Assembly (NCBI GenBank): GCA_902573015.1
Contig: CACGIE010000011.1
Coordinates: 1-37,538 of the forward strand
Source: an uncultured Candidatus Poseidoniales archaeon
Lineage (GTDB): Archaea; Thermoplasmatota; Poseidoniia; Poseidoniales; Thalassarchaeaceae
Length of the DNA: 37,538 nucleotides
Direction of reading: 5' to 3'
Shown: positions 2,500-21,878 of the stretch, piece after piece
How the letters are laid out: every line of letters starts with the position of its first letter
How positions within the stretch are numbered: the first letter of the stretch is position 1
Translations under genes and position numbers: made by a program
The notes under the pieces: model-generated
Seen by the model: only the letters and a program-made list of their open reading frames with translations
What the model was told of the DNA's origin: nothing
The model's database searches: none

Positions 2500-3486
2500 C
2501 TACGTCCATACGAATGCGTTCGCGCCCCATGCCAGACCCCCGCCGAAGGCAGCCGTAACGATCAGGTCCCCACTGTTCACGAGTCCCTCGTCAACAGCCT
2601 CACGGAGTGCTATTGGGACGCTTGCCCCTGCGGTATTCCCGTACCTCTGGAGATTGGTGAAGGTCTTGTCCATGGGCAATCCCAGATTCTCCATGCCAGC
2701 CTCAACGATTCTGAGGTTTGCCTGGTGGGGGATAATCAGGTCGACCTCCGAGAGGTCCCTTCCTATCCTTTCGAGTACCCCCCTGACAGCCTGAGGAAAG
2801 GCCTCGATAGCGAATCTCCATACTGCTCTCCCATCCATCTGGAAGTACTGGTCACCTTCATCGAATCCAGAGGAGAGGATGGGCGTCCTTACGCCTCCGG
2901 CAGGAATCTCGATAACCTCAGATCCGCTACCGTCTGACATCATCCAGCTGCCCAGCATCCCCCTTCCGTCTCCTACTTCTGAAAGAACGGCCGCTCCAGC
3001 CCCGTCCCCGAAGAGCACGCAAGTCCCCCTGTCATCCCAATTCAGGATCCTGCTGTAAACCTCCGATCCAACTACGAGGACGTTGGAGTAGTCCCGGGTT
3101 CCCGCATATCTAGATCCTACGTCCAGCGCATGTACCCAACCAGCGCATACCGCGTTGATGTCGAAGGCCGCCGCATTTTTGCACCCAAGCTTGTGCTGCG
3201 TTATTCCTGCCGTGGAAGACAGGGGGACGTCCGGGCTGCTCGTTGCAAGGATCAGCATGTCGATGTCATCCGGGGACAGGCCCGCCTCCTCGATCGCCTG
3301 CTGGCTCGCAATCACTGCCAGGTCGCTCGTGCAAACGTCCGGGTCTGCTATCCTCCTCTCTTTGATTCCAGTTTTCGTGGTAATCCACTCATCGCTGGTC
3401 TCTACTAGCCCTGCCCAGTCCTCGTTCGTCATCACCTTGGAGGGGACGTGGGACCCTAGGCCCACTATTCCAGCAGGAGGCATCAT
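2500..3486 (-). CDS. Beta-ketoacyl synthase III (FabH-like) of the six-gene operon
   Basis: A thiolase-fold KAS III enzyme, about 328 residues from the chosen start, the usual family length. The family condenses an acyl-CoA or similar thioester with a malonyl or other nucleophile through a Cys-His-Asn triad. All three are visible: Cys in DINAVCAGW, His in IIPHQAN and Asn in RYGNTAGAS (residues 134, 274 and 304 counted from the longer start at 3546). The N-terminal segment PAGIVGLGSHVPSKV aligns with the first strand of FabH, which favours the ATG at 3486. The longer start at 3546 would add 20 unlikely residues and overlap the aldehyde dehydrogenase. It is the last gene of the operon. Archaea lack a bacterial fatty acid synthase, so a role in a specialised pathway is more likely than housekeeping lipid synthesis; this is inference. 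Confidence 0.88.
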   Translation of the reverse strand: MMPPAGIVGLGSHVPSKVMTNEDWAGLVETSDEWITTKTGIKERRIADPDVCTSDLAVIASQQAIEEAGLSPDDIDMLILATSSPDVPLSSTAGITQHKLGCKNAAAFDINAVCAGWVHALDVGSRYAGTRDYSNVLVVGSEVYSRILNWDDRGTCVLFGDGAGAAVLSEVGDGRGMLGSWMMSDGSGSEVIEIPAGGVRTPILSSGFDEGDQYFQMDGRAVWRFAIEAFPQAVRGVLERIGRDLSEVDLIIPHQANLRIVEAGMENLGLPMDKTFTNLQRYGNTAGASVPIALREAVDEGLVNSGDLIVTAAFGGGLAWGANAFVWT

Positions 3487-3523
3487 GCCCGACCGACTAT
3501 TGAGGACTTTCACTCTTGCTGCA

Positions 3524-4979
3524 CTAGTCGTGCTTAACGCACACATTCATGGCCTCCGAGAAGAATCCCAGGCTCCACTTCCCGCCTTCCCTCCCGACCC
3601 CGCTGTCCTTCACCCCTCCGAACGGTACTCGGAGGTCCCTGTGCAGCCAGGCGTTTATCCATACCATCCCGGTCTCAATTGATTCCGAGAACCTCCTACC
3701 CCTCTCTAGGTCGCTAGTCCAGACGCTTCCTGCGAGGCCGTAGCTAGTGCAGTTTGCTATTTCAAGAGCCTCATCATCGGTCTCGAATCTGTGAAGCGTA
3801 ACCACCGGACCGAAGATCTCCTCGGTGGAGCACCTCGAGTCGGGAGAAAGACCCGAGATAACAGTCGGAGCCATCCAGTTCCCGCCACCGAGATCGGACG
3901 GTAGGCAGGGCTCCCCGCCCGTCAGGACCGTCCCTCCCTCTTCGAGCGCGAGGTCGACGTAACTCCTGACCTTCTGGAGGTGTTCCTTCGATATCAGGGC
4001 CCCTAGTTGGGTGGATTCATCTGACGGGTCTCCGATGGTCAGGGCTTCTACTGCCTCAACGAACTTCTCCTCGAACTCATCGTAAATCGAATCCTCTACG
4101 AGTACCCTAGAGCCGCACAGACAAACTTGTCCCTGGTTGAGGAAACCAGACCTTACGACTCCGGCGACGGTGGCCTCCATCTCGCAGTCCGCGAAGACAA
4201 TGCTGGAGTTCTTCCCCCCCGAGTTCGAGGCTCATCTTCTTGAACATCGGAGCGGCGGAGGAGGCCACCTTCTCTCCTGTAGAAGTGCCGCCTGTGAAAG
4301 AGACCAGGTCCACGCCAGGATGCTCCACGAGAGGGGCGCCTGCTCCGATACCGTCACCGTGGACGAGGTTGACCACTCCGGCCGGTAGGCCGACACTGTC
4401 CACCGCTCTCATCAGGAGGTCAGCTGTCATGGGGGTTAGCTCGCTTGGCTTGCATACCACTGTGTTGCCCATGCCTATCGCGGGAGCAACCTTCCATGAC
4501 AGTAGGTACAGGGGGAGGTTCCAAGGTGTGATCAGTGCTCCTACTCCGACGGGCTTGTAAAGGACATAATTGGTGGAGTCATCATTCTCGAAGATTTCCG
4601 GCTCCTGCTCCCTGATCATGCTTGCAAAGAATCGGAAGTTAGTGACAGACCTGCTGGCATCAAGGGATCTAGCAAGTGAAATCGGCTTACCGGTATCCCT
4701 GCTCTCTAGTGCCGCTATCTCCTCGTAGGACGACTCAAGGTAGTCTGCTATCCTGTCCAGCCAATCAGCCCTATCATCCGGACTAAGGGAACCCCATCCA
4801 GGTTGAGCCTCCCGAGCAGCCTCAACAGCCGAATCTATCGTCTTAGATCCCGATAGTGGGACCTTTCCGTATACCCGTCCGGTGGCTGGCTCTAACACAT
4901 CCATCCAGTCCTTGCCAGAGTGCTCTACGAAACTGCCTCCGATGTAATTGCTAAGGCAAACTAGATCCTGCTCATCCAT
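3524..4979 (-). CDS. Aldehyde dehydrogenase, 2-aminomuconic/2-hydroxymuconic semialdehyde type, interrupted by a frameshift
   Basis: Two overlapping frames together make one ALDH of about 484 residues. The N-terminal part (ALITPWNLPLYLLSWK, KPSELTP, FTGGTSTGE, LELGG) is read from 4979. The C-terminal part (NQGQVCLCGSR with the catalytic Cys, EIFGPVVTLHRF, WLHRDLRVPFGGVKDSG) is read to 3524. The break is in a run of seven C at 4214-4220. Removing one base restores GG-KNSSIVFADCEM across the junction. The family oxidises an aldehyde to an acid with NAD(P)+. The Cys motif and the WLHRDLR...GVKDSGVGREGG end are closest, from memory, to ALDH8/AmnC/XylG enzymes acting on muconic semialdehydes. It overlaps the upstream hydrolase gene by 8 bp. 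Sequencing error, phase variation and true decay are all possible; otherwise the protein looks intact. Confidence 0.85.
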
Positions 4980-6156
4980 CTAAAGCACCCTCGTTGGAAA
5001 ATGGGTCTTGGCGAGTCATCCCCTCCGAGTAGTCCTTCCAGTCGATAGAGAAGCTGTCTCTGTTTGGATCCCACTCGTCCCAGGTTACAACCTGCTCCAA
5101 CTTATCTAGGTACATTTCTGGAACAACTCGGGGAACTATGAATGCCTTCTGCCTGTGAAGCGGATATGGGTTCCTAAGGGTGATTCCGAGGACTCCGAGA
5201 ACTGCCCTTGCCACGTACCATGTAGCCTGAGAGTTCCAGCCATGTGCTATCTTGATCACTATCCCTAGACCGTTAGGCCAGTCCTCGTGCTCGATAGCGA
5301 GTCCGAGTAGCCCGTCAGCTCCTTCCTTTGCAATCAGGCTGCCGTTACCCGCCTTGAGGCAAGTTGAGTCAAGTCTGTTGAATCCCCCTATCAGGTCGGG
5401 GTGGCGGTTCATCGCCTCCCAAATCCAGTCATCTTCCTTCTCTCTGACTATGCCTGCGAACATTATAGCCAACTCGTCTACTGTGTTGGATACGGTGGGT
5501 AGGCCGCAACCGTCCTTTGCAACCCTCTGAGGCTCCCAATCCGGAGAATCCATGATATTTCTCAGGACATCAATGAACATGGGGAACCAAGGAGAGCTCG
5601 GAAGTGTGTAACCGGCTCTGTTTATGCCCATCCTTCTGAGCGCCTTTAGTATCGCGGCATGCTCTCCCGAGCATGTGTGGAACCACCTTCTTGGCCTTCT
5701 AACTTGTCTGCCGAACTGAATTAGGGGAACGTCCAGAGGGCACTGCATCAATCCCCATTCGGACTCGGTAAGAAGCGACTGAGCAGTAGCAACGTGTTCA
5801 GTGTCACCGTTATGCGAGGAGCAAGAAATAGCCTTCTGCTCCCAGGTCAGACCATCGGCTTCCAATACGTCCGCAAACGCCTTCATCAACAGGGGTTTCA
5901 TCATCGATCTCCCATATACCAGGACGTTCCCTCCGAACGAGTGAATGACCTCGGTTCCATGCGACCAGGAAATGGCTCCATGGATGGTGTTCTCGGAGAC
6001 GTCTAGTCGACGGAAGTCCACCAGGGGTTCCCATTCGACGTCTCTTCCGGTGGCTATCCCATCGAACTTCTCGCCTAGCGGATTCGTGGGATATACGGAC
6101 GAACCCGGCCTTCCTGGAGAGACGCTTGACGGATTCGCACTCCCCTCTCCGGACAT
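4972..6156 (-). CDS. Asparaginase II family (PF06089-type) hydrolase
   Basis: A protein of 394 residues with the hallmarks of the bacterial L-asparaginase II family, unrelated to the T2 enzyme at 19594. They are RSMMKPLLMKAF (about 84-95), ISCSSHNGDTEH (about 109-120), HTCSGEHAAILKALRRMG, KDGCGLPTVSN, and NRHPDLIGGFNRLDS followed by LIAKEGADGLLG. The family is thought to hydrolyse amides such as asparagine, with a serine-dependent beta-lactamase-like active site. The N-terminal extension of about 40 Ser/Gly/Pro-rich residues looks disordered. The start codon overlaps the stop of the monooxygenase gene (TGATG). Its place among redox and formyltransfer genes suggests an amide intermediate specific to this pathway rather than general asparagine breakdown; that is inference. 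Confidence 0.82.
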   Translation of the reverse strand: MSGEGSANPSSVSPGRPGSSVYPTNPLGEKFDGIATGRDVEWEPLVDFRRLDVSENTIHGAISWSHGTEVIHSFGGNVLVYGRSMMKPLLMKAFADVLEADGLTWEQKAISCSSHNGDTEHVATAQSLLTESEWGLMQCPLDVPLIQFGRQVRRPRRWFHTCSGEHAAILKALRRMGINRAGYTLPSSPWFPMFIDVLRNIMDSPDWEPQRVAKDGCGLPTVSNTVDELAIMFAGIVREKEDDWIWEAMNRHPDLIGGFNRLDSTCLKAGNGSLIAKEGADGLLGLAIEHEDWPNGLGIVIKIAHGWNSQATWYVARAVLGVLGITLRNPYPLHRQKAFIVPRVVPEMYLDKLEQVVTWDEWDPNRDSFSIDWKDYSEGMTRQDPFSNEGALDG

Positions 6157-7397
6157 CAGATACCTCCGTTCACTCGGGGGGCGACTTTGTTCATGAAAGC
6201 CGCCATGTTCCTCATCACCCTGGCGCTATCGTGGTTGAAGAAGTCGAACCAGCACATTATCCGATCATCCGGGTGAAACCTCTCGGATATCTGCTCGCTT
6301 ACGCTATCGACGCTACCTATCACTGCGTTATCGGTGGCTCGCTCTATCTTACTGGGGTCAATGGTCCCCTCCAGGGCGCTCCAGTAGGTGGAGAGTGCCG
6401 AACGTGCCTCATCCATGGCAGCGGCGTCCTGCTCCTCATTGGACAGGCCTTCCTCATCGTTCACGAATACCATCACGGTTCTCGGCATCATCCTTCTTTC
6501 CCACTTCCCACCGTCAACATGGTAACTGGAACTCATTCGTTCGTGAGTCTCCTCGATGATATTGGGAGGGGTGATACTTAGGTTGAACACCTGTACTGGC
6601 CTGAATCTGTTCACCTTCTCTTGGAGAACGCTATCGTGACTGCCCAATACAAGATTTAGCAAATCTCTCCTCCAGTCTTGCGGTATAGTCTTGATATCCT
6701 CGAACAGATACCTATTCCCCATATTTATCGAGTCAGGGAGGGAGTCAAGTTCCAGCTCAACTTGTGCCACTCTTTGGACCTCAGACCAATCATCGTCTGT
6801 CCTGAAATTGCTCCTTGTCAGAATTGTCGGGGCGACTTCGTCACTCGAAACAATTTCTCCGTTCAGGAGTCTTAGGAAAATTTCCGATGCCTCCGAAAAT
6901 ATCTGGCCCCTTAGCGCGGGCCACGCTGCTTCCTCAAGGGCGTCCCTTGGGACAATTCCATATGGTCTTGCCATGAATTCGAATCGGCCCGCAGAGAAAC
7001 CGATGTGTAGCTTTCTGACCTCATCTGGATCCATTCCATGAAGTGCAAGGAACGACCCTACCCTCTCTGCCTGGGCTATGGGCCCTCCTGATGCTAGTAT
7101 TGACATCACCGCACTACCGACCTCCATCCTCTCGGTTCGCGCGAACATCTCCCTTGCTACTTGGAAGAAGTCAGTGCAGAGGCCGACCTCTCCGGGATAG
7201 TGGGGGACAACAGGTTTGCTGTTCCTCTTCTGTATCTCGGTCGAAAGATGGGCCTGGGCGACCCAACCAACTCCGAACCCCAATTTGTCAGCTAGGACCA
7301 CTTGGTCGAAGAAACTAGTGAACATCTCACTCTCTGAGGGAGTATACCCGGTCGTGTCCGGAGTCTGGGAGATGGAGAAGAAAACGTCAAATTCCAT
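6156..7397 (-). CDS. Luciferase-like (LLM class) flavin-dependent monooxygenase
   Basis: A protein of 413 residues with the TIM-barrel features of bacterial luciferase-like oxidoreductases. It starts MEFDVFFSISQTPDTTGY. It then has ADKLGFGVGWVAQAH (about 37-51, the usual 'aEelGfd..w..EHH' region), GSAVMSILASGGPIAQAERVG (about 98-118) and HIGFSAGRFEFMARPYG (about 132-148). The C-terminal part (NAVIGSVDSVSEQISER) matches the usual closing segment. These enzymes use reduced FMN and O2 to hydroxylate or oxidatively cleave a substrate, and need a flavin reductase, which is not seen nearby. It lies 11 nt after the SDR gene and overlaps the asparaginase-like gene by one base, so it is almost certainly co-transcribed. 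The substrate cannot be told from sequence. Confidence 0.85.
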   Translation of the reverse strand: MEFDVFFSISQTPDTTGYTPSESEMFTSFFDQVVLADKLGFGVGWVAQAHLSTEIQKRNSKPVVPHYPGEVGLCTDFFQVAREMFARTERMEVGSAVMSILASGGPIAQAERVGSFLALHGMDPDEVRKLHIGFSAGRFEFMARPYGIVPRDALEEAAWPALRGQIFSEASEIFLRLLNGEIVSSDEVAPTILTRSNFRTDDDWSEVQRVAQVELELDSLPDSINMGNRYLFEDIKTIPQDWRRDLLNLVLGSHDSVLQEKVNRFRPVQVFNLSITPPNIIEETHERMSSSYHVDGGKWERRMMPRTVMVFVNDEEGLSNEEQDAAAMDEARSALSTYWSALEGTIDPSKIERATDNAVIGSVDSVSEQISERFHPDDRIMCWFDFFNHDSARVMRNMAAFMNKVAPRVNGGI

Positions 7398-7408
7398 TGA
7401 AACCCTCT

Positions 7409-8209
7409 CTAAATCGAGCGCATTCTACCACCATCTACGGCCAGGCTGACTCCTCTAACGCCGCTACTACTGGGTAGGCACAGCCAAGTCACAGCAGCAG
7501 CCGTCTCCATAGGGTCGATTAGACGTTGGATAGGGACGCCGCTCATCCAATCGTCTTGGACGGTCTTAACCGGCTTCCCTGTTCTGTTAGAGATGGACTC
7601 AGCAAGAGAGCCCAGCCTGTCTGTATCGGTGAATCCAGGAAGAATGTTGTTTATTGTGATACAGGGGGGCAGCTCTCTTGACAAGGACTTAGCCCAGGAT
7701 GCCATTGCTCCTCTCAGGGTGTTGGAGAGGCCTATGTTGTCAATCGGCTCTCTCACCGAGGTTGAGATGATATTCACAATCCTGCCCGTACCTTCTGATT
7801 CCATATCAGGAACCAGGGCCTTAGTCAGTGTGTGTGAAGCGTGAAGATGTCTTCTGAAGGGGCCTTCAAAGTCATCCAAATCATTCTCCAACAGTGGTCC
7901 GCCGGGAGGCCCTCCAGAATTGTTCACTAGGATGTGGATGGGACCAATATCGCGGACCATATCCTGCACGCCGGCAATGTCCTCAAGGTCCAACTCGATT
8001 GCCTCATGTCCTTCTCCATGCATCTCCCGTATCAGTGAGTCTAGGTCCGAAGAGGTCCTGGCGCAGGCGATTACTCTAGCACCACCTCTCGCCAGCATCA
8101 ATGCGCAGGCCCGACCTATGCCCTTTGAGGCTCCACACACAAGAGCCGTATTTCCACTAAGAATCCCCTCTGCAAAGGGGAAGTCCGAACCTGCAAGATT
8201 GCTTTCCAT
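7409..8209 (-). CDS. Short-chain dehydrogenase/reductase with an atypical active site
   Basis: A 266-residue Rossmann-fold SDR. The dinucleotide motif is ALVCGASKGIGRACALML (about 22-39), followed by ACARTSSDLD, which suggests NADP(H). Next come LVNNSGGPPGGP, NIISTSVREPIDNIGLSNTLRGAM and the C-terminal GVRGVSLAVDGGRMRSI. The usual YxxxK pair is absent: at that position the protein reads SNTLR. A subgroup of 3-oxoacyl-reductase-like SDRs with NNSGGPPxG and SNxxR is known to me, so this looks like a subfamily trait rather than damage. It sits 8 nt after the formyltransferase gene and 11 nt before the monooxygenase. The reaction may be a ketone or alcohol redox step, but the chemistry is uncertain without the Tyr. 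Confidence 0.85.
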   Translation of the reverse strand: MESNLAGSDFPFAEGILSGNTALVCGASKGIGRACALMLARGGARVIACARTSSDLDSLIREMHGEGHEAIELDLEDIAGVQDMVRDIGPIHILVNNSGGPPGGPLLENDLDDFEGPFRRHLHASHTLTKALVPDMESEGTGRIVNIISTSVREPIDNIGLSNTLRGAMASWAKSLSRELPPCITINNILPGFTDTDRLGSLAESISNRTGKPVKTVQDDWMSGVPIQRLIDPMETAAAVTWLCLPSSSGVRGVSLAVDGGRMRSI

Positions 8210-8217
8210 CTGTTCAC

Positions 8218-8940
8218 CTAGTCTGAGTAATGCGCATAAGTCTGGTCCCTAAGTTTTTGTCTGACCGCTTCTAGAATTTCTTCCGGTGCATTCCTGAATG
8301 TGGGATGGTATGCCTCTCCCTGCGGCCTCCTTATTTCGTCCCAGACTCCTTGCTCATATGCAAGTAGGGCTTCTTTCATCAGGACCCCGGCAAGGACCAG
8401 GGTGTGGTAGCACAGATCCTCGTACGTCATGCCTCTCGTCACTGGAAACTCTCTTCTCATCAGAAGATCCCCAGTATCAATACCGTTGTCACAGAAGTGG
8501 GTGGAGGATCCGATTGGGATGTCATGGAAAACCGACCATGCCGGAGATGCAGAGCCTCGGCAGTCAGGGAGTAGGCCAGGGTGCGAGTTGATTACTCCAT
8601 CCGAAGGATAGTCCAGAATCTCTCCTCTGATTATCCTAGTTCCGCCGAATACTATCAGGTCCAGATCCATTCCCTCTAGGTGTGGCATGACCTCCGCTGA
8701 ATTGTGTATAGGAACGGAGACAACATCAATCCCCGACTCATCGGCTTGCTCCTGGATTGATGGGGCTATCTGGTGGCCCTGGATACGCCTGAGGAACTTC
8801 TCCCGTTCTTCATCACCTATCTCGGAGTCCTCCTCTATGATTAACTCAGGGATGAACCCCTCAGACAGTATCTGCATGAGCATCTCTCTACCGTACGGAT
8901 GCTCTTTGAGCAAAAGGAATGCGAACTTCGGTTTGCCCAT
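8218..8940 (-). CDS. Formyltransferase-fold enzyme (PurN/Fmt-like), first gene of the six-gene operon
   Basis: About 240 residues of the N10-formyltetrahydrofolate-dependent formyltransferase fold. The catalytic signature is complete: Asn and His in INSHPGLLPDCRG, and Asp in THFCDNGIDTGDLL, matching the Asn-His-Asp triad of PurN/Fmt. The segment LIVFGGTRIIRGEILDYP precedes it. There is no OB-fold C-terminal domain like that of methionyl-tRNA formyltransferase. Archaea do not normally formylate Met-tRNA, so a small-molecule amine is a more likely acceptor; this is inference. The ATG at 8940 was preferred because MGKPKFAFLLLKEHPYG begins like the first strand and a GGTATCA box lies about 29 nt upstream. 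The ATG at 8964 would add 8 residues. It is the promoter-proximal gene of the operon. Confidence 0.82.
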   Translation of the reverse strand: MGKPKFAFLLLKEHPYGREMLMQILSEGFIPELIIEEDSEIGDEEREKFLRRIQGHQIAPSIQEQADESGIDVVSVPIHNSAEVMPHLEGMDLDLIVFGGTRIIRGEILDYPSDGVINSHPGLLPDCRGSASPAWSVFHDIPIGSSTHFCDNGIDTGDLLMRREFPVTRGMTYEDLCYHTLVLAGVLMKEALLAYEQGVWDEIRRPQGEAYHPTFRNAPEEILEAVRQKLRDQTYAHYSD

Positions 8941-9072
8941 ATGTATGTCTTCCGCAGGGGTCATTGATACCCTTCATTTTCGGTCAAATCTGTCAAAATC
9001 GAGCATCTGTGTCTAGAAAATGCATCCCCAACCTTCAAAATGGGTGTTTGGCTCGCGTGGCTCGCTATGTCA

Positions 9073-9423
9073 ATGGTTTACAACAGCAAGATGAAGGAAG
9101 CAATAAAGGCTGGCGGATGCAACACCGCTGGAGACGCCGCTGGCGCTCTGAATGCAGCAGTAGAAGCTGCAGTTGCATCGGCAGTCGCTCGATGCGGCTC
9201 TAACGGCCGAAAGACCATCCGCTCGCACGACATCGGAAGCGGAAGCTCGGATTCGGGTATGGTCGTAGCCAGCAGGGTCAAGGAGGCCTTCAAGGCTCAC
9301 GGCTGCAACACTGGTGGAGATGCTATGGGAGCAATGAACGCTCTAGCAGAGTCCGCTGTGTCAGATGCAGTTGCAAGGGCTCAGGCAAACGGACGAAAGA
9401 CCGTTCGCGCAAGCGACTTCTGA
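9073..9423 (+). CDS. Tandem histone-fold protein (doublet, short third helix)
   Basis: A 116-residue protein made of two copies of one module (about 1-54 and 63-116), identical at about 33 of 54 positions. Each copy has MVxxSxxKEAxKAxGCNT, a GDAxGAxNA...AVAR helix and an NGRKTxRxxD loop. The GRKT...D segment is the histone L2 loop signature. Helix 3 after it is almost absent, as in the alpha3-truncated histones of bacteria and some archaea. Covalent pairing of two folds would give an intramolecular dimer, as in the doublet histones of Methanopyrus and halophiles. It probably binds or bridges DNA. The ATG at 9073 was chosen because the second copy begins MVVASRVKEA exactly as the first begins MVYNSKMKEA; the ATG at 9040 would add 11 unrelated residues. 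It is transcribed divergently from the six-gene operon. Confidence 0.78.
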   Translation: MVYNSKMKEAIKAGGCNTAGDAAGALNAAVEAAVASAVARCGSNGRKTIRSHDIGSGSSDSGMVVASRVKEAFKAHGCNTGGDAMGAMNALAESAVSDAVARAQANGRKTVRASDF

Positions 9424-10518: not shown

Positions 10519-11973
10519 TCAGGGTGTGACCCGACTTCTGTCTCGGGGGAAAAGAACCACTTCTCTGACGTTTCCAGCACCGGTTAGCACCATCAGCAAT
10601 CTAGCCACGCCCAAGCCCCATCCAGCATGAGGCGGTGCCCCGTAGCGAAAACCGTCCGTGTAGAATGTGAAGTCCGAGGGGTCAAGCCCGACATCCCTAA
10701 GATTCTGTTCCAATACCTCTACCCTGTGCTCTCTGGCACCTCCGCTTGTCATCTCGTCCCTTCCGTAGTTGAGGTCGAATCCCCTACTTAGTTGCCCCCC
10801 GGTGGATCCTTCTTCACCCGCCTTGTGATGGATGTAGAATGGCTTCATCGACATCGGCCAGCGTGGGATGAAGTGGAAGCCAGGATACTTCTCTGCGATG
10901 ATATCGCAGTGGTGGCTTTCTATATCGTCGCCCCAGCTAATCTCCCCCCCTCCTTGCTTCACTATGTCTATTGCCTCGCAGTAAGGTATTCGAGGGAATG
11001 GTAGCGAAGGCGCCTCTACGGTTACAGGGTCATTTCCTTGGGATTCTCGATATTCGTTTACGGCTTCGATTAGGCCCATGTCGTTCTCGGCAATCTTGCA
11101 CCAGATATGGTTAATCATCCTCTCCTGAACCCCCATAACATCCTCATCGTCCATCCATGCGCCCTCGATATCGAACGATACAAACTCGTTTAGGTGCCTG
11201 TAGGTGTCGTGCTTCTCGGCCCTGAAGGCAGCCCCAATTTCGAAAACCCTCTCGAGACCTCCGAGAACTGCGAGCTGTTTGTACAACTGAGGACTCTGCG
11301 AGAGGTATGCATCAGTCTCGAAGTACTTCATTGGGAACAGATTCGTCCCTCCTTCTGCTGCGGCGGCAATTATCTTTGGAGAGTTGATTTCTTGGAATCC
11401 CTCTGAAATCAAATGCTCCCTTCCGTACTGGAGAACCTTACTCCTGAGTTGAAACATCGCGTTCACGTGAGACCTTCTGAGGTCCAAGTGCCTGTTGTCT
11501 AGTCTCACATCAAGACCAACGTTAACCTCGTCAGTGACCCCAACAGGGAGGGGTGTTTCTGAGACTGCCAGAATCTTCCCATCCTCGACATTAACTTCGA
11601 ACTCAGGTGGTGGCAATGGATCTCCCTCGGGAACCTTAGGGGGGCGCTTCTTCGCCACTTTTCCAGTTATTTGGATAGTCGACTCTCTTGTCGAGGATTG
11701 TATCGAGTCGAATAAATCATTATCCATATTATCCTTCTTCAGGAACGCTTGGATTCTCCCGGTTCCATCACGGAGCATCAGGAAGCAAATCGCACCTCTT
11801 CCCCTGACTGTCTCAGCATACCCTGCTATCGTAACCTCAGAACCAACTAGGGACTCTCCTGCCGTGACGACTTGGCCTATGGTGTGCGTACGGTAAGCAG
11901 TTGGCTCCCAGTTTGTACTGTCTCTCATGAAGCCACGTGCCGGACGGTCCCTTTGAAAGGTTTCAGTCAACAT
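10519..11973 (-). CDS. aspS: Aspartyl-tRNA synthetase, archaeal type
   Basis: A class IIb synthetase that attaches Asp to tRNA(Asp), and in many archaea also to tRNA(Asn). The N-terminal OB-fold anticodon-binding domain includes [19 protein letters not shown]. The catalytic core has motif 2 as [15 protein letters not shown] and motif 3 as [33 protein letters not shown] is also characteristic. The ending [10 protein letters not shown], without the bacterial GAD insertion, shows the archaeal/eukaryotic form. The length of 484 residues is slightly above the roughly 430-440 usual. The extra lies at the N-terminus, so the ATG at 11928 (MRDSTNWEP) is an alternative start. The longer start abuts the trmI stop (TAGATG), which favours translational coupling. 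Confidence 0.93.
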
Positions 11974-20723: not shown

Positions 20724-20762
20724 GGATTGAATAGCAATCCCCCGCATGGATCTACGTTAGAA

Positions 20763-21878
20763 ATGCCCGAGTGGACTAATCTCTCCTATGCGAATGTCGC
20801 AACGACCTCCCCCGCAGCTCATCGCGTCTCATCGGATTGGGCCGAATCTCTTGCGAGGGGGGGTGCAGCGGAGTTCGATGGCGAAGCTGAGAAGAACGGC
20901 ATGATGCCACTGAGGAAGGCTGCCTCCAGCCTTCTATCCTGCGATATTGCCGACGTGTGCGTCGGATCCAGCGCCACGGAGTTGCTTTGCTCGATCGCCT
21001 GGGCGATATCCCCTCAAGAAGGGACAAACGTAGTTTCCACTAGGTCGTCATTCCCCTCCACAGTATACCCGTGGGCCAGGGTCGCCGATCAGAACGGGGC
21101 TGAGATCAGGCTTGCTGACCACGATGAAAACCTGTACACCGATCCTTCCGAACTCCTCTCACTGATCGATGAGGGCACCTCCGTTGTCACGGTCTCGCAC
21201 GTCGAGTTCTCCAACGGGCAGAGGTATGACTTACGGAAGATTTCCGATGCGGCCCATTCCGTCGGAGCCATGCTCGTGGTAGATGCAACCCAGTCAATGG
21301 GGATGGTCCCCATCGACGCATACGAGACCAATGCCGATGCCATCGTGTCCTCTGGCTACAAGTGGCTCAGGGGGACATACGGGGCCGCTGTCGGATTCAT
21401 CTCCCCCTCGGTCGTCAAGACTCTGAACCCCGGGCTGATGGGATTCAGGAGCAATTCGGATATCTGGGACCTGAGGGCGGATAGGCTCGAACTACCAGAG
21501 GACGCGAGCAGGTTCGAGTTCACGACCATCCACTTCGGTGCGGTCCTAGGCCTTGCGGCTGCTATCGACGAGCTTCTCGAAATGGGGATGGACGAGGTCT
21601 GGAGGCATGACCTGGGGCTCGCCGACCATCTGATAAGAGGGGCGGAGGGACTGGGGATCGAAGTAGTCTCGCCGACTTCGGAGTCGGAGAGAAGCGCGAT
21701 CGTGAGCCTGAGGATGCCCTCTGGCCGGAGCAGCGTAGAGGTATCCGACAGGCTCCAGTCCGAATACTCGATACTCACCACCAGCAGATCGGGGATGCTG
21801 CGCGTGTCACCTCACATCGACAACGACATCTCGCAGATCGACTCTCTAGTTTCAGCGCTGTCTGACATCATCTCATAG
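20763..21878 (+). CDS. Class V aminotransferase (cysteine desulfurase/EgtE-like fold)
   Basis: About 371 residues of the PLP fold-type I, class V family. The PLP Lys is in SSGYKWLRGTYGAAVGF (about 212). The upstream Asp is in MLVVDATQSMGMVPID, and the phosphate-binding segment is VGSSATELLCSIAW. The TATQSxG/GYKWL...G pattern is shared by isopenicillin-epimerase, kynureninase-like and desulfurase-like enzymes. No conserved desulfurase Cys loop is obvious, so an amino transferase, lyase or epimerase is as likely as sulfur mobilisation. The ATG at 20763 is preferred; a TTG at 20727 would add 12 residues of unlikely composition. Its end overlaps the convergent exporter gene by a few bases. Confidence 0.82.
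   Translation: MPEWTNLSYANVATTSPAAHRVSSDWAESLARGGAAEFDGEAEKNGMMPLRKAASSLLSCDIADVCVGSSATELLCSIAWAISPQEGTNVVSTRSSFPSTVYPWARVADQNGAEIRLADHDENLYTDPSELLSLIDEGTSVVTVSHVEFSNGQRYDLRKISDAAHSVGAMLVVDATQSMGMVPIDAYETNADAIVSSGYKWLRGTYGAAVGFISPSVVKTLNPGLMGFRSNSDIWDLRADRLELPEDASRFEFTTIHFGAVLGLAAAIDELLEMGMDEVWRHDLGLADHLIRGAEGLGIEVVSPTSESERSAIVSLRMPSGRSSVEVSDRLQSEYSILTTSRSGMLRVSPHIDNDISQIDSLVSALSDIIS

Follow-up and report, generated by a model that had tools for sequence, protein, structure and literature searches.

In the aerobic kynurenine pathway, tryptophan is converted by TDO to N-formylkynurenine and by a formamidase such as KynB to kynurenine, after which kynureninase gives anthranilate, or KMO, 3-HAO and ACMSD lead to 2-aminomuconate semialdehyde. 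The closest gene clusters described are amnJBACDFEHG of Burkholderia xenovorans LB400, a 2-aminophenol meta-cleavage cluster (available text of PMC3790839), and the 3-hydroxyanthranilate cluster of Aspergillus terreus, which comprises a 2-aminomuconate 6-semialdehyde dehydrogenase (AMSDH), a Baeyer-Villiger monooxygenase (BVMO) and a short-chain dehydrogenase (SDR), and runs through 3-HAO and ACMSD (available text of PMC7842363). This study concerns an array of six genes in a stretch of 37,538 nucleotides from an uncultured Candidatus Poseidoniales archaeon of the Thalassarchaeaceae (GCA_902573015.1, contig CACGIE010000011.1). The stretch, referred to here as the window, makes up contig C11 in full; the genome to which it belongs has a stated completeness of 63%. 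Our analysis suggests, with considerable confidence, that the array without its KAS III gene accounts for the central steps of a route for tryptophan breakdown in which kynureninase is bypassed. All six genes run in the same direction, on the minus strand, and occupy 8964 to 2500:

8218..8964, minus strand: FMT, formyltransferase-fold protein, proposed hydrolase of N-formylkynurenine (or of an N-formyl intermediate); Pfam Formyl_trans_N, E 5.5e-12
7409..8209, minus strand: SDR, short-chain dehydrogenase-like; Pfam adh_short, E 4.1e-33
6156..7397, minus strand: LLM, luciferase-like flavin monooxygenase, proposed kynurenine Baeyer-Villiger monooxygenase; Bac_luciferase (PF00296), E 2.1e-6, marginal
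4972..6156, minus strand: ASP2, asparaginase II-like Ser-Lys hydrolase, proposed beta-aspartyl (2-aminophenyl) ester hydrolase; Asparaginase_II (PF06089), E 3.6e-43
4107..4979, minus strand: ALDH 5' part, 2-aminomuconate 6-semialdehyde dehydrogenase-like, before a frameshift; Pfam Aldedh
3524..4180, minus strand: ALDH 3' part, displaced into a different frame by seven consecutive G where relatives have six; Pfam Aldedh
2500..3546, minus strand: KAS III (FabH-like), apparently a lineage-specific addition; ACP_syn_III and its C-terminal domain, TIGR00747 fabH 348.7 bits against a cut-off of 292.1

We further propose, on balance and less firmly, a widespread and undescribed tryptophan route, near-universal in Marine Group II. 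In this route, kynurenine would be cleaved in two steps, a Baeyer-Villiger oxidation and the hydrolysis of the resulting beta-aspartyl ester, with recovery of aspartate and entry into 2-aminophenol meta-cleavage. The deformylase would come in three folds unrelated to each other, one of them a formyltransferase fold that has become a hydrolase.

The system resembles the aerobic kynurenine pathway in having TDO, a KynB-type formamidase and a downstream 2-aminomuconate semialdehyde dehydrogenase, but kynureninase and 3-HAO are rare here, and the side chain is proposed to be removed by oxygen insertion and ester hydrolysis. Such a route is in no textbook known to us. With the LB400 cluster it shares the association of AmnB, AmnA, a dehydrogenase (AmnC in LB400) and a YjgF/RidA-family protein, and with it the same ring cleavage and semialdehyde oxidation (available text of PMC3790839). 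In LB400, however, the feeder named for 2-aminophenol is nitrobenzene, the main text of that paper contains neither "tryptophan" nor "kynurenine", and amnFEHG follow; here the partners are TDO, a formamidase, LLM, ASP2 and SDR, and the TIGR03217 aldolase exceeds its cut-off in 0 of 60 genomes of the order. The A. terreus cluster is the nearest precedent, but its BVMO is FAD-binding, with a substrate not named in the available text of PMC7842363, whereas the present system has a luciferase-fold enzyme, ASP2 and AmnBA, and rarely 3-HAO. In the available text of PMC12113859, predicted 2-aminophenol degradation and tryptophan degradation appear as separate enriched pathways. No description of a Baeyer-Villiger cleavage of kynurenine, or of tryptophan catabolism by this cluster, was found in the literature searched, whose coverage mostly leaves out subscription journals and preprints. 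A previous sequence-only reading of the window knew of no described pathway with this set of enzymes. The set as a whole indeed matches none that we found, but ALDH, together with the AmnBA and RidA that adjoin it in relatives, belongs to the described 2-aminophenol meta-cleavage pathway. The array would thus join known modules by an undescribed pair of reactions, predicted for LLM and ASP2.

Results

Conservation of the array within the order

Counts across the order refer to 145 genomes, 33 of them near-complete; some family profiles were run on 60 genomes, and gene order was examined in 40 regions (20 + 20) taken around the cluster, one of which runs off its contig within ALDH. LLM was found in 139 of the 145 genomes and ASP2 in 137, each in 32 of the 33 near-complete ones. 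The sequence-only reading had proposed a single unit, to be given up if relatives carried the genes scattered; the core of LLM, ASP2 and ALDH remains side by side in 40/40 loci, which were taken around these genes. SDR is near LLM in 38/40 of these loci and in 68/80 loci of the wider set described below. A TPR-repeat protein was observed between SDR and LLM in L061, L066, L070 and L080, from several genera (by Pfam in L070, by eye in the others).

The packing of the genes is tight: FMT and SDR are separated by 8 nucleotides (nt) and SDR and LLM by 11 nt, LLM and ASP2 overlap by 1 nt, and ASP2 and ALDH by 8 nt. The junction of ALDH and KAS III is a 23-nt overlap if the longest frame of KAS III, starting at 3546, is taken, or a 37-nt gap if the ATG at 3486 is used. 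These positions and spacings reproduce those of the sequence-only reading, which had missed a break in ALDH. All six families are present, but the reading frame of ALDH is interrupted: seven consecutive G on the minus strand (4220-4214) split it into two frames (4979-4107 and 4180-3524). The run has six G in the relatives L081, L082 and L084, and the two nearest, L081 and L082, encode an intact protein of 484 amino acids. A homopolymer error appears likelier here than a real mutation. The same arrangement including KAS III is found in L208 (Candidatus Thalassarchaeum betae) and L231 (Candidatus Thalassarchaeaceae archaeon).

With regard to KAS III, the distribution is much narrower. It lies near the cluster in 18/40 order loci and occurs in 51/145 genomes, corresponding to 6 of 21 genera in a single family, and it is absent from one whole family. 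In the wider set it is present in 16/33 archaeal and 0/47 bacterial loci, and is missing from five loci of Marine Group III (MGIII) type. KAS III may be regarded as a lineage-specific addition with no supported role in the pathway, and the earlier suggestion that it adds or cleaves an acyl unit does not hold up against these counts. A pathway of fatty acid or lipid metabolism centred on KAS III was considered and dropped because the gene is confined to one family.

Companion genes encoded elsewhere in the genomes

The clue to the pathway came from neighbouring LigB-type genes. In many loci of the other family, a few genes past the cluster, two LigB-type genes are found with an amino acid permease, the second of them encoding a protein that joins an alpha-subunit-like part to a RidA domain. 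In L070 (14167-15831) the permease adjoining AmnBA carries C-terminal EF-hands, an unusual combination, and the copy in L079 looks alike by eye.

AmnB was found in 132/145 genomes of the order and in 33/33 near-complete ones; in this genome it lies on contig C7. The protein matches solved beta subunits of 2-aminophenol 1,6-dioxygenase (E 4e-106 to 8ihg), and in the alignment to 3vsg the positions of His13, His62 and Glu251, which we take to be the iron ligands of that subunit, are all conserved. TDO (PF03301) exceeds the Pfam cut-off in 58/60 genomes and is encoded on contig C6 here, among genes that read by eye as heme and thiolase genes rather than pathway genes.

The classical kynurenine pathway was judged by searches for kynureninase and 3-HAO. 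Kynureninase is over its cut-off in 1/60 genomes and 3-HAO in 3/60, two of them strong, and tblastn found no kynureninase match in the 80 wider loci; the canonical route through kynureninase and 3-HAO was dropped on these counts and on the absence of tblastn matches in the 80 loci. The only true kynureninase among the 60 genomes is G013:C29:6106-7323, in a genome that also has a strong 3-HAO, which perhaps points to a classical kynurenine pathway existing as a second route within that genus. In the window, a gene at 20727-21878 (plus strand) encodes a pyridoxal phosphate (PLP) enzyme-like protein with a distant, sub-cut-off kynureninase match (E 2e-14). Over 280 residues, its identity with the enzyme of G013 is 22%; it was rejected as a kynureninase, and a PLP enzyme of another kind is likelier.

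Related clusters outside the order

When genomes were scanned with an LLM alignment whose first sequence is a Streptomyces clavuligerus protein, to which LLM is 46% identical, 418 relatives were found. The 80 scoring best with this query, which are not a random sample, were fetched (33 archaeal and 47 bacterial loci), and pathway genes were sought in them by tblastn with thresholds of 45-60 bits, in stretches some of which are short. Judged by their labels, the loci span Planctomycetota, Myxococcota, Deltaproteobacteria, Acidobacteria, Proteobacteria, Actinomycetes, Latescibacterota, Krumholzibacteriota, a Silvanigrellales metagenome-assembled genome (MAG), Marine Group III and Marine Group II. 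They contain ASP2 in 63 cases, ALDH in 65, AmnB in 27, TDO in 24, RidA in 23 and KynB in 16; one of the TDO matches, in L158, is a 28-residue piece at the edge of the locus.

The fullest clusters place almost the entire proposed route in one row. The order TDO-SDR-LLM-ASP2-ALDH-AmnB-AmnA-RidA-KynB is found in six bacterial loci (L160, L161, L171, L179, L185, L211), and the same order with FMT in the last position in five MGIII-type archaeal loci (L203, L206, L225, L228, L233), three of which have an extra hydrolase-like frame between ALDH and AmnB. LLM, ASP2, ALDH and AmnB occur together in 19 bacterial and 8 archaeal loci; TDO accompanies them in 9 and 6 of these, respectively, KynB in 15 and 1, FMT in 0 and 7, and FMT with KynB in none. 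Where both LLM and ASP2 are seen they lie less than 200 nt apart in 61/63 loci, as would be expected for consecutive steps; the exceptions are L162 (2.3 kb) and L163 (4.2 kb). The AmnA-like subunit and RidA form one frame in 12/15 bacterial and 3/8 archaeal loci showing both, and are separate genes in the five MGIII-type loci and in the family of the window. Three KynB proteins tested against the TIGR03035 arylformamidase model scored 189-208 bits (E 2e-61 to 1e-55).

In a tree of 50 LLM rows, those of Marine Groups II and III (11 rows) form one clade (100/100) among bacterial sequences, with a midpoint root chosen for drawing only. A groundwater Thermoplasmata sequence whose locus has KynB (L194) falls elsewhere. 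The clade fits a transfer of LLM from bacteria to marine archaea, with the direction not proven, so that a bacterial link, as raised in the sequence-only reading, is plausible. The actinobacterial relatives are the most distant rows. Among them, LLM lies beside genes that read by eye as tryptophan synthase in L158 and L200 and by a partial TDO match in L159; all three loci have tryptophan synthase-like or methyltransferase-like neighbours by eye and are possible clusters for tryptophan-derived natural products. Around the S. clavuligerus gene, tblastn found no other pathway gene, and a plasmid search with ASP2 returned only asparaginases of 26-33% identity among the best 20 of 80 records. A contig labelled as a Klebsiella pneumoniae MAG (L174) contains SDR-LLM-ALDH, and in the tree its LLM forms a pair with that of a proteobacterial MAG; the contig is probably mis-binned or mislabelled.

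The proposed deformylation slot

The enzyme at the proposed formamidase position differs between lineages. FMT was found in 73/145 genomes of the order and an alpha/beta hydrolase in 63/145, with both in 0/145. In the family that has both kinds (71 genomes), the absence of overlap has a chance of 6e-9 under random placement with kinship ignored. The hydrolase occupies the FMT slot between AspS and SDR in 9/40 loci, sometimes with genes between, and a tenth copy runs off the end of its contig; one genus has both kinds at that slot (FMT in L068, the hydrolase in L069). It had no match among arylformamidase models, and its formamidase role is suggested by this placement and alternation.

FMT has the Formyl_trans_N domain, and its AlphaFold model (pLDDT 88.7) matches structures of methionyl-tRNA formyltransferase and of 10-formyl-tetrahydrofolate hydrolase domains. 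Asn126, His128 and Asp163, presumably the catalytic triad of formyltransferases, are invariant in 21/21 rows, and domain and triad together place FMT in the formyltransferase/10-formyl-tetrahydrofolate hydrolase fold. The sequence-only reading had assigned an N-formylation step to this protein. Given that FMT replaces KynB between bacterial and MGIII clusters, where it holds the KynB position, and co-occurs neither with KynB (0/80 loci) nor with the alpha/beta hydrolase, hydrolysis of N-formylkynurenine seems a better reading of FMT than N-formylation.

Active sites and folds

LLM narrowly misses the Bac_luciferase cut-off (27.7 bits against 27.9), but its match to the luciferase fold is clear: the AlphaFold model (pLDDT 92.9) has this fold, with RslO1 as the best structural match. 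Like the type II BVMO 3,6-diketocamphane monooxygenase (4uwm), LLM is a luciferase-fold flavin enzyme, proposed here to act on a ketone; the two are about 14% identical in structural alignment, and 4uwm stands at rank 18, no closer than luciferase.

ASP2 scores 148.2 bits against an Asparaginase_II cut-off of 25. It was compared with Rhizobium etli ReAV (7os3), the key residues of which are given in the available text of PMC8602277; positions were mapped by hand, and the rows include near-copies. ASP2 is similar to ReAV in family and in both Ser-Lys dyads, the equivalents of Ser48, Lys51, Ser80 and Lys263 being kept in every row with letters there (103, 103, 103 and 102 rows), and Cys135 and Cys189 are kept in most rows. 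It differs at Lys138, where 95 of 103 rows have Glu and 8 have Gln, never Lys, and at Cys249, aligned with Asp in 102/102 rows. ASP2 thus does not show the ReAV-type zinc site Cys135-Lys138-Cys189, and eight rows also lack both zinc cysteines. The hydrolase machinery appears to be kept and its surroundings to be changed consistently; an aspartyl ester rather than asparagine is the proposed substrate.

For ALDH, the intact ortholog in L093 has 2-aminomuconate 6-semialdehyde dehydrogenases as its best PDB matches (E 2e-133). Arg120, Arg464, Cys302, Glu268 and Asn169 are each kept in 63/63 intact rows (39 from the order, 24 from the wider loci). The positions were mapped by hand from the 4u3w alignment, and because the motifs ELGGK and PFGG served to select the rows, Glu268 is present by choice. 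We take Asn169 to be a key AMSDH residue. The substrate clamp of Arg120 and Arg464, and Cys302 and Glu268, are those described for AMSDH in the available text of PMC4286809. ALDH scores below the NCBIfam cut-offs of TIGR03216 and TIGR02299, and hydroxymuconic semialdehyde dehydrogenases may share the five residues.

SDR does not have the classical Tyr-x3-Lys: by eye, Ser and Arg (SNTxR) replace it, as in its best PDB match, 5va8. SDR is possibly a 2-aminomuconate or 4-oxalocrotonate reductase, or a flavin reductase.

Neighbouring genes

Further features flank the array, one of them a frequent neighbour of the cluster in the order:

10519..11973, minus strand: AspS, aspartate--tRNA(Asn) ligase, frequent upstream neighbour, outside the pathway; NCBIfam PRK05159

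AspS lies upstream of the cluster in 31/40 order loci, partial copies counted. A 127-residue protein of two similar halves, histone-fold-like by eye and without a Pfam match, is encoded at 9040-9423 on the plus strand; five loci of the genus (L081-L085) likewise have it upstream of the cluster. Downstream of KAS III, a large protein with Ephrin_rec_like repeats occupies 1-2496 on the minus strand; in other genera, repeat-type matches are found on the other strand. Over the whole window, neither the Rfam nor the tRNA scan gave a hit, and a scan upstream of the array found no promoter with sigma-70 patterns, which are ill-suited to archaea.

Discussion

Family membership, the conservation of active sites and the conservation of clusters with TDO, AmnBA, RidA and a formamidase are read directly from the sequences; the substrates and reactions of LLM, ASP2 and FMT, and the roles of SDR and RidA, are what we infer from them. 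In the proposed scheme, TDO, encoded elsewhere in the genome, would open the indole ring of tryptophan to give N-formylkynurenine, and FMT, or KynB or the alpha/beta hydrolase in relatives, would strip the formyl group to give kynurenine. LLM would then insert oxygen between the aryl ring and the side-chain carbonyl, producing the beta-(2-aminophenyl) ester of aspartate, which ASP2 would split into L-aspartate and 2-aminophenol. AmnBA would cleave the ring of 2-aminophenol to give 2-aminomuconate 6-semialdehyde, ALDH would oxidise this to 2-aminomuconate, and the RidA-type protein would deaminate the product. SDR is a candidate reductase of 2-aminomuconate or of its deaminated form.

The central pair of steps is proposed because AmnBA needs 2-aminophenol, and Baeyer-Villiger oxidation followed by ester hydrolysis is the shortest chemistry leading to it from kynurenine, an aryl ketone with an ortho amino group. 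There is precedent for aryl ketones as Baeyer-Villiger substrates, and aryl migration in kynurenine gives exactly the ortho-aminophenol, with a beta-aspartyl ester as the other half. The scheme is favoured since it uses the otherwise unexplained LLM and ASP2 in gene order and requires no kynureninase. Cleavage of a trigonelline- or homarine-like pyridine ring by a monooxygenase, ALDH and an amidase had been considered and was dropped once AmnBA and TDO appeared.

Several observations weigh against this pathway. Bacterial luciferase, RslO1 and others outrank 4uwm among the structural matches of LLM, and RutA and SsuD also matched; the fold therefore does not decide the chemistry of LLM. A flavin reductase, which could supply FMNH2, lies beside the cluster in only 3/60 genomes, all of one genus and each directly upstream of FMT. 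The ALDH of the contig studied is itself frameshifted. Within the stretch covered, bacterial LLM loci are without ASP2 in 17/47 cases, without AmnB in 28/47 and without TDO in 30/47. The three KynB proteins tested fall below the equivalog cut-off of 223 bits, and the TDO proteins tested are likewise below NCBIfam equivalog cut-offs. In the order, AmnB has no match in 13/145 genomes, all less than 90% complete, and neither FMT nor the alpha/beta hydrolase was found in 9/145, 7 of them below 90%. The hydrolase lies on the strand opposite LLM or AmnB and some kb away in at least eight genomes (G008, G029, G085, G089, G103, G124, G142, G144). Weak sub-cut-off matches to kynureninase and 3-HAO occur in 11 and 12 more of the 60 genomes, respectively. 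Finally, the TIGR03217 aldolase, a 4-hydroxy-2-oxovalerate aldolase and classical downstream step, gives weak family matches in 58 of the 60 genomes, none reaching the cut-off, which was not reached in any of 14 control genomes either.

A much less likely alternative is that the same pathway runs in another order or by other chemistry: LLM could act on N-formylkynurenine before deformylation, or ipso-hydroxylate the ring with loss of the side chain, leaving ASP2 to handle a later amide or enamine. The formamidase genes stand at the far end of the fullest clusters, the luciferase fold suits several oxygenations, and the departures of ASP2 from ReAV at the zinc ligand Lys138 and at Cys249 mean that the family name does not give the substrate. 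On the other side, the close spacing of LLM and ASP2 is that of consecutive steps, and the Baeyer-Villiger product would be a beta-aspartyl ester, a bond type suited to an asparaginase. It is improbable that the cluster is biosynthetic, converting tryptophan to 2-aminophenol or 2-aminomuconate semialdehyde for a metabolite such as picolinate or a phenoxazinone-type compound. The semialdehyde dehydrogenase is present in 65/80 loci and RidA in 23/80, and AmnBA of the order has an amino acid permease gene beside it (partly by eye), all of which argue for catabolism; the actinobacterial loci with tryptophan synthase-like or methyltransferase-like genes point the other way, as does the partial conversion of 2-aminophenol to picolinic acid by B. 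xenovorans (available text of PMC3790839). The unrelated N-formylation pathway of the sequence-only reading, with KAS III acting on an acyl unit, is very improbable, for although FMT keeps the Asn-His-Asp triad of formyltransferases and KAS III is co-directional with the array, FMT alternates with formamidase-type hydrolases, and KAS III was found in no bacterial locus, in none of the five MGIII-type loci and nowhere in one family of the order. What survives of that reading is a dedicated pathway on a nitrogenous compound, apparently catabolic, that combines a flavin-dependent oxygenation with a hydrolytic step and the oxidation of a muconic-type semialdehyde; N-formylation and the role of KAS III do not.

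If the proposed kynurenine cleavage is correct, common archaea of the ocean would degrade tryptophan aerobically by a non-textbook route that is also present in several bacterial phyla. Functions would be given to proteins annotated merely as luciferase-like monooxygenase, asparaginase II, formyltransferase and SDR, with LLM and ASP2 forming a kynurenine-cleaving enzyme pair, and 2-aminophenol dioxygenase would gain a natural source of substrate besides nitrobenzene. The route would also bear on the turnover of free tryptophan in seawater.

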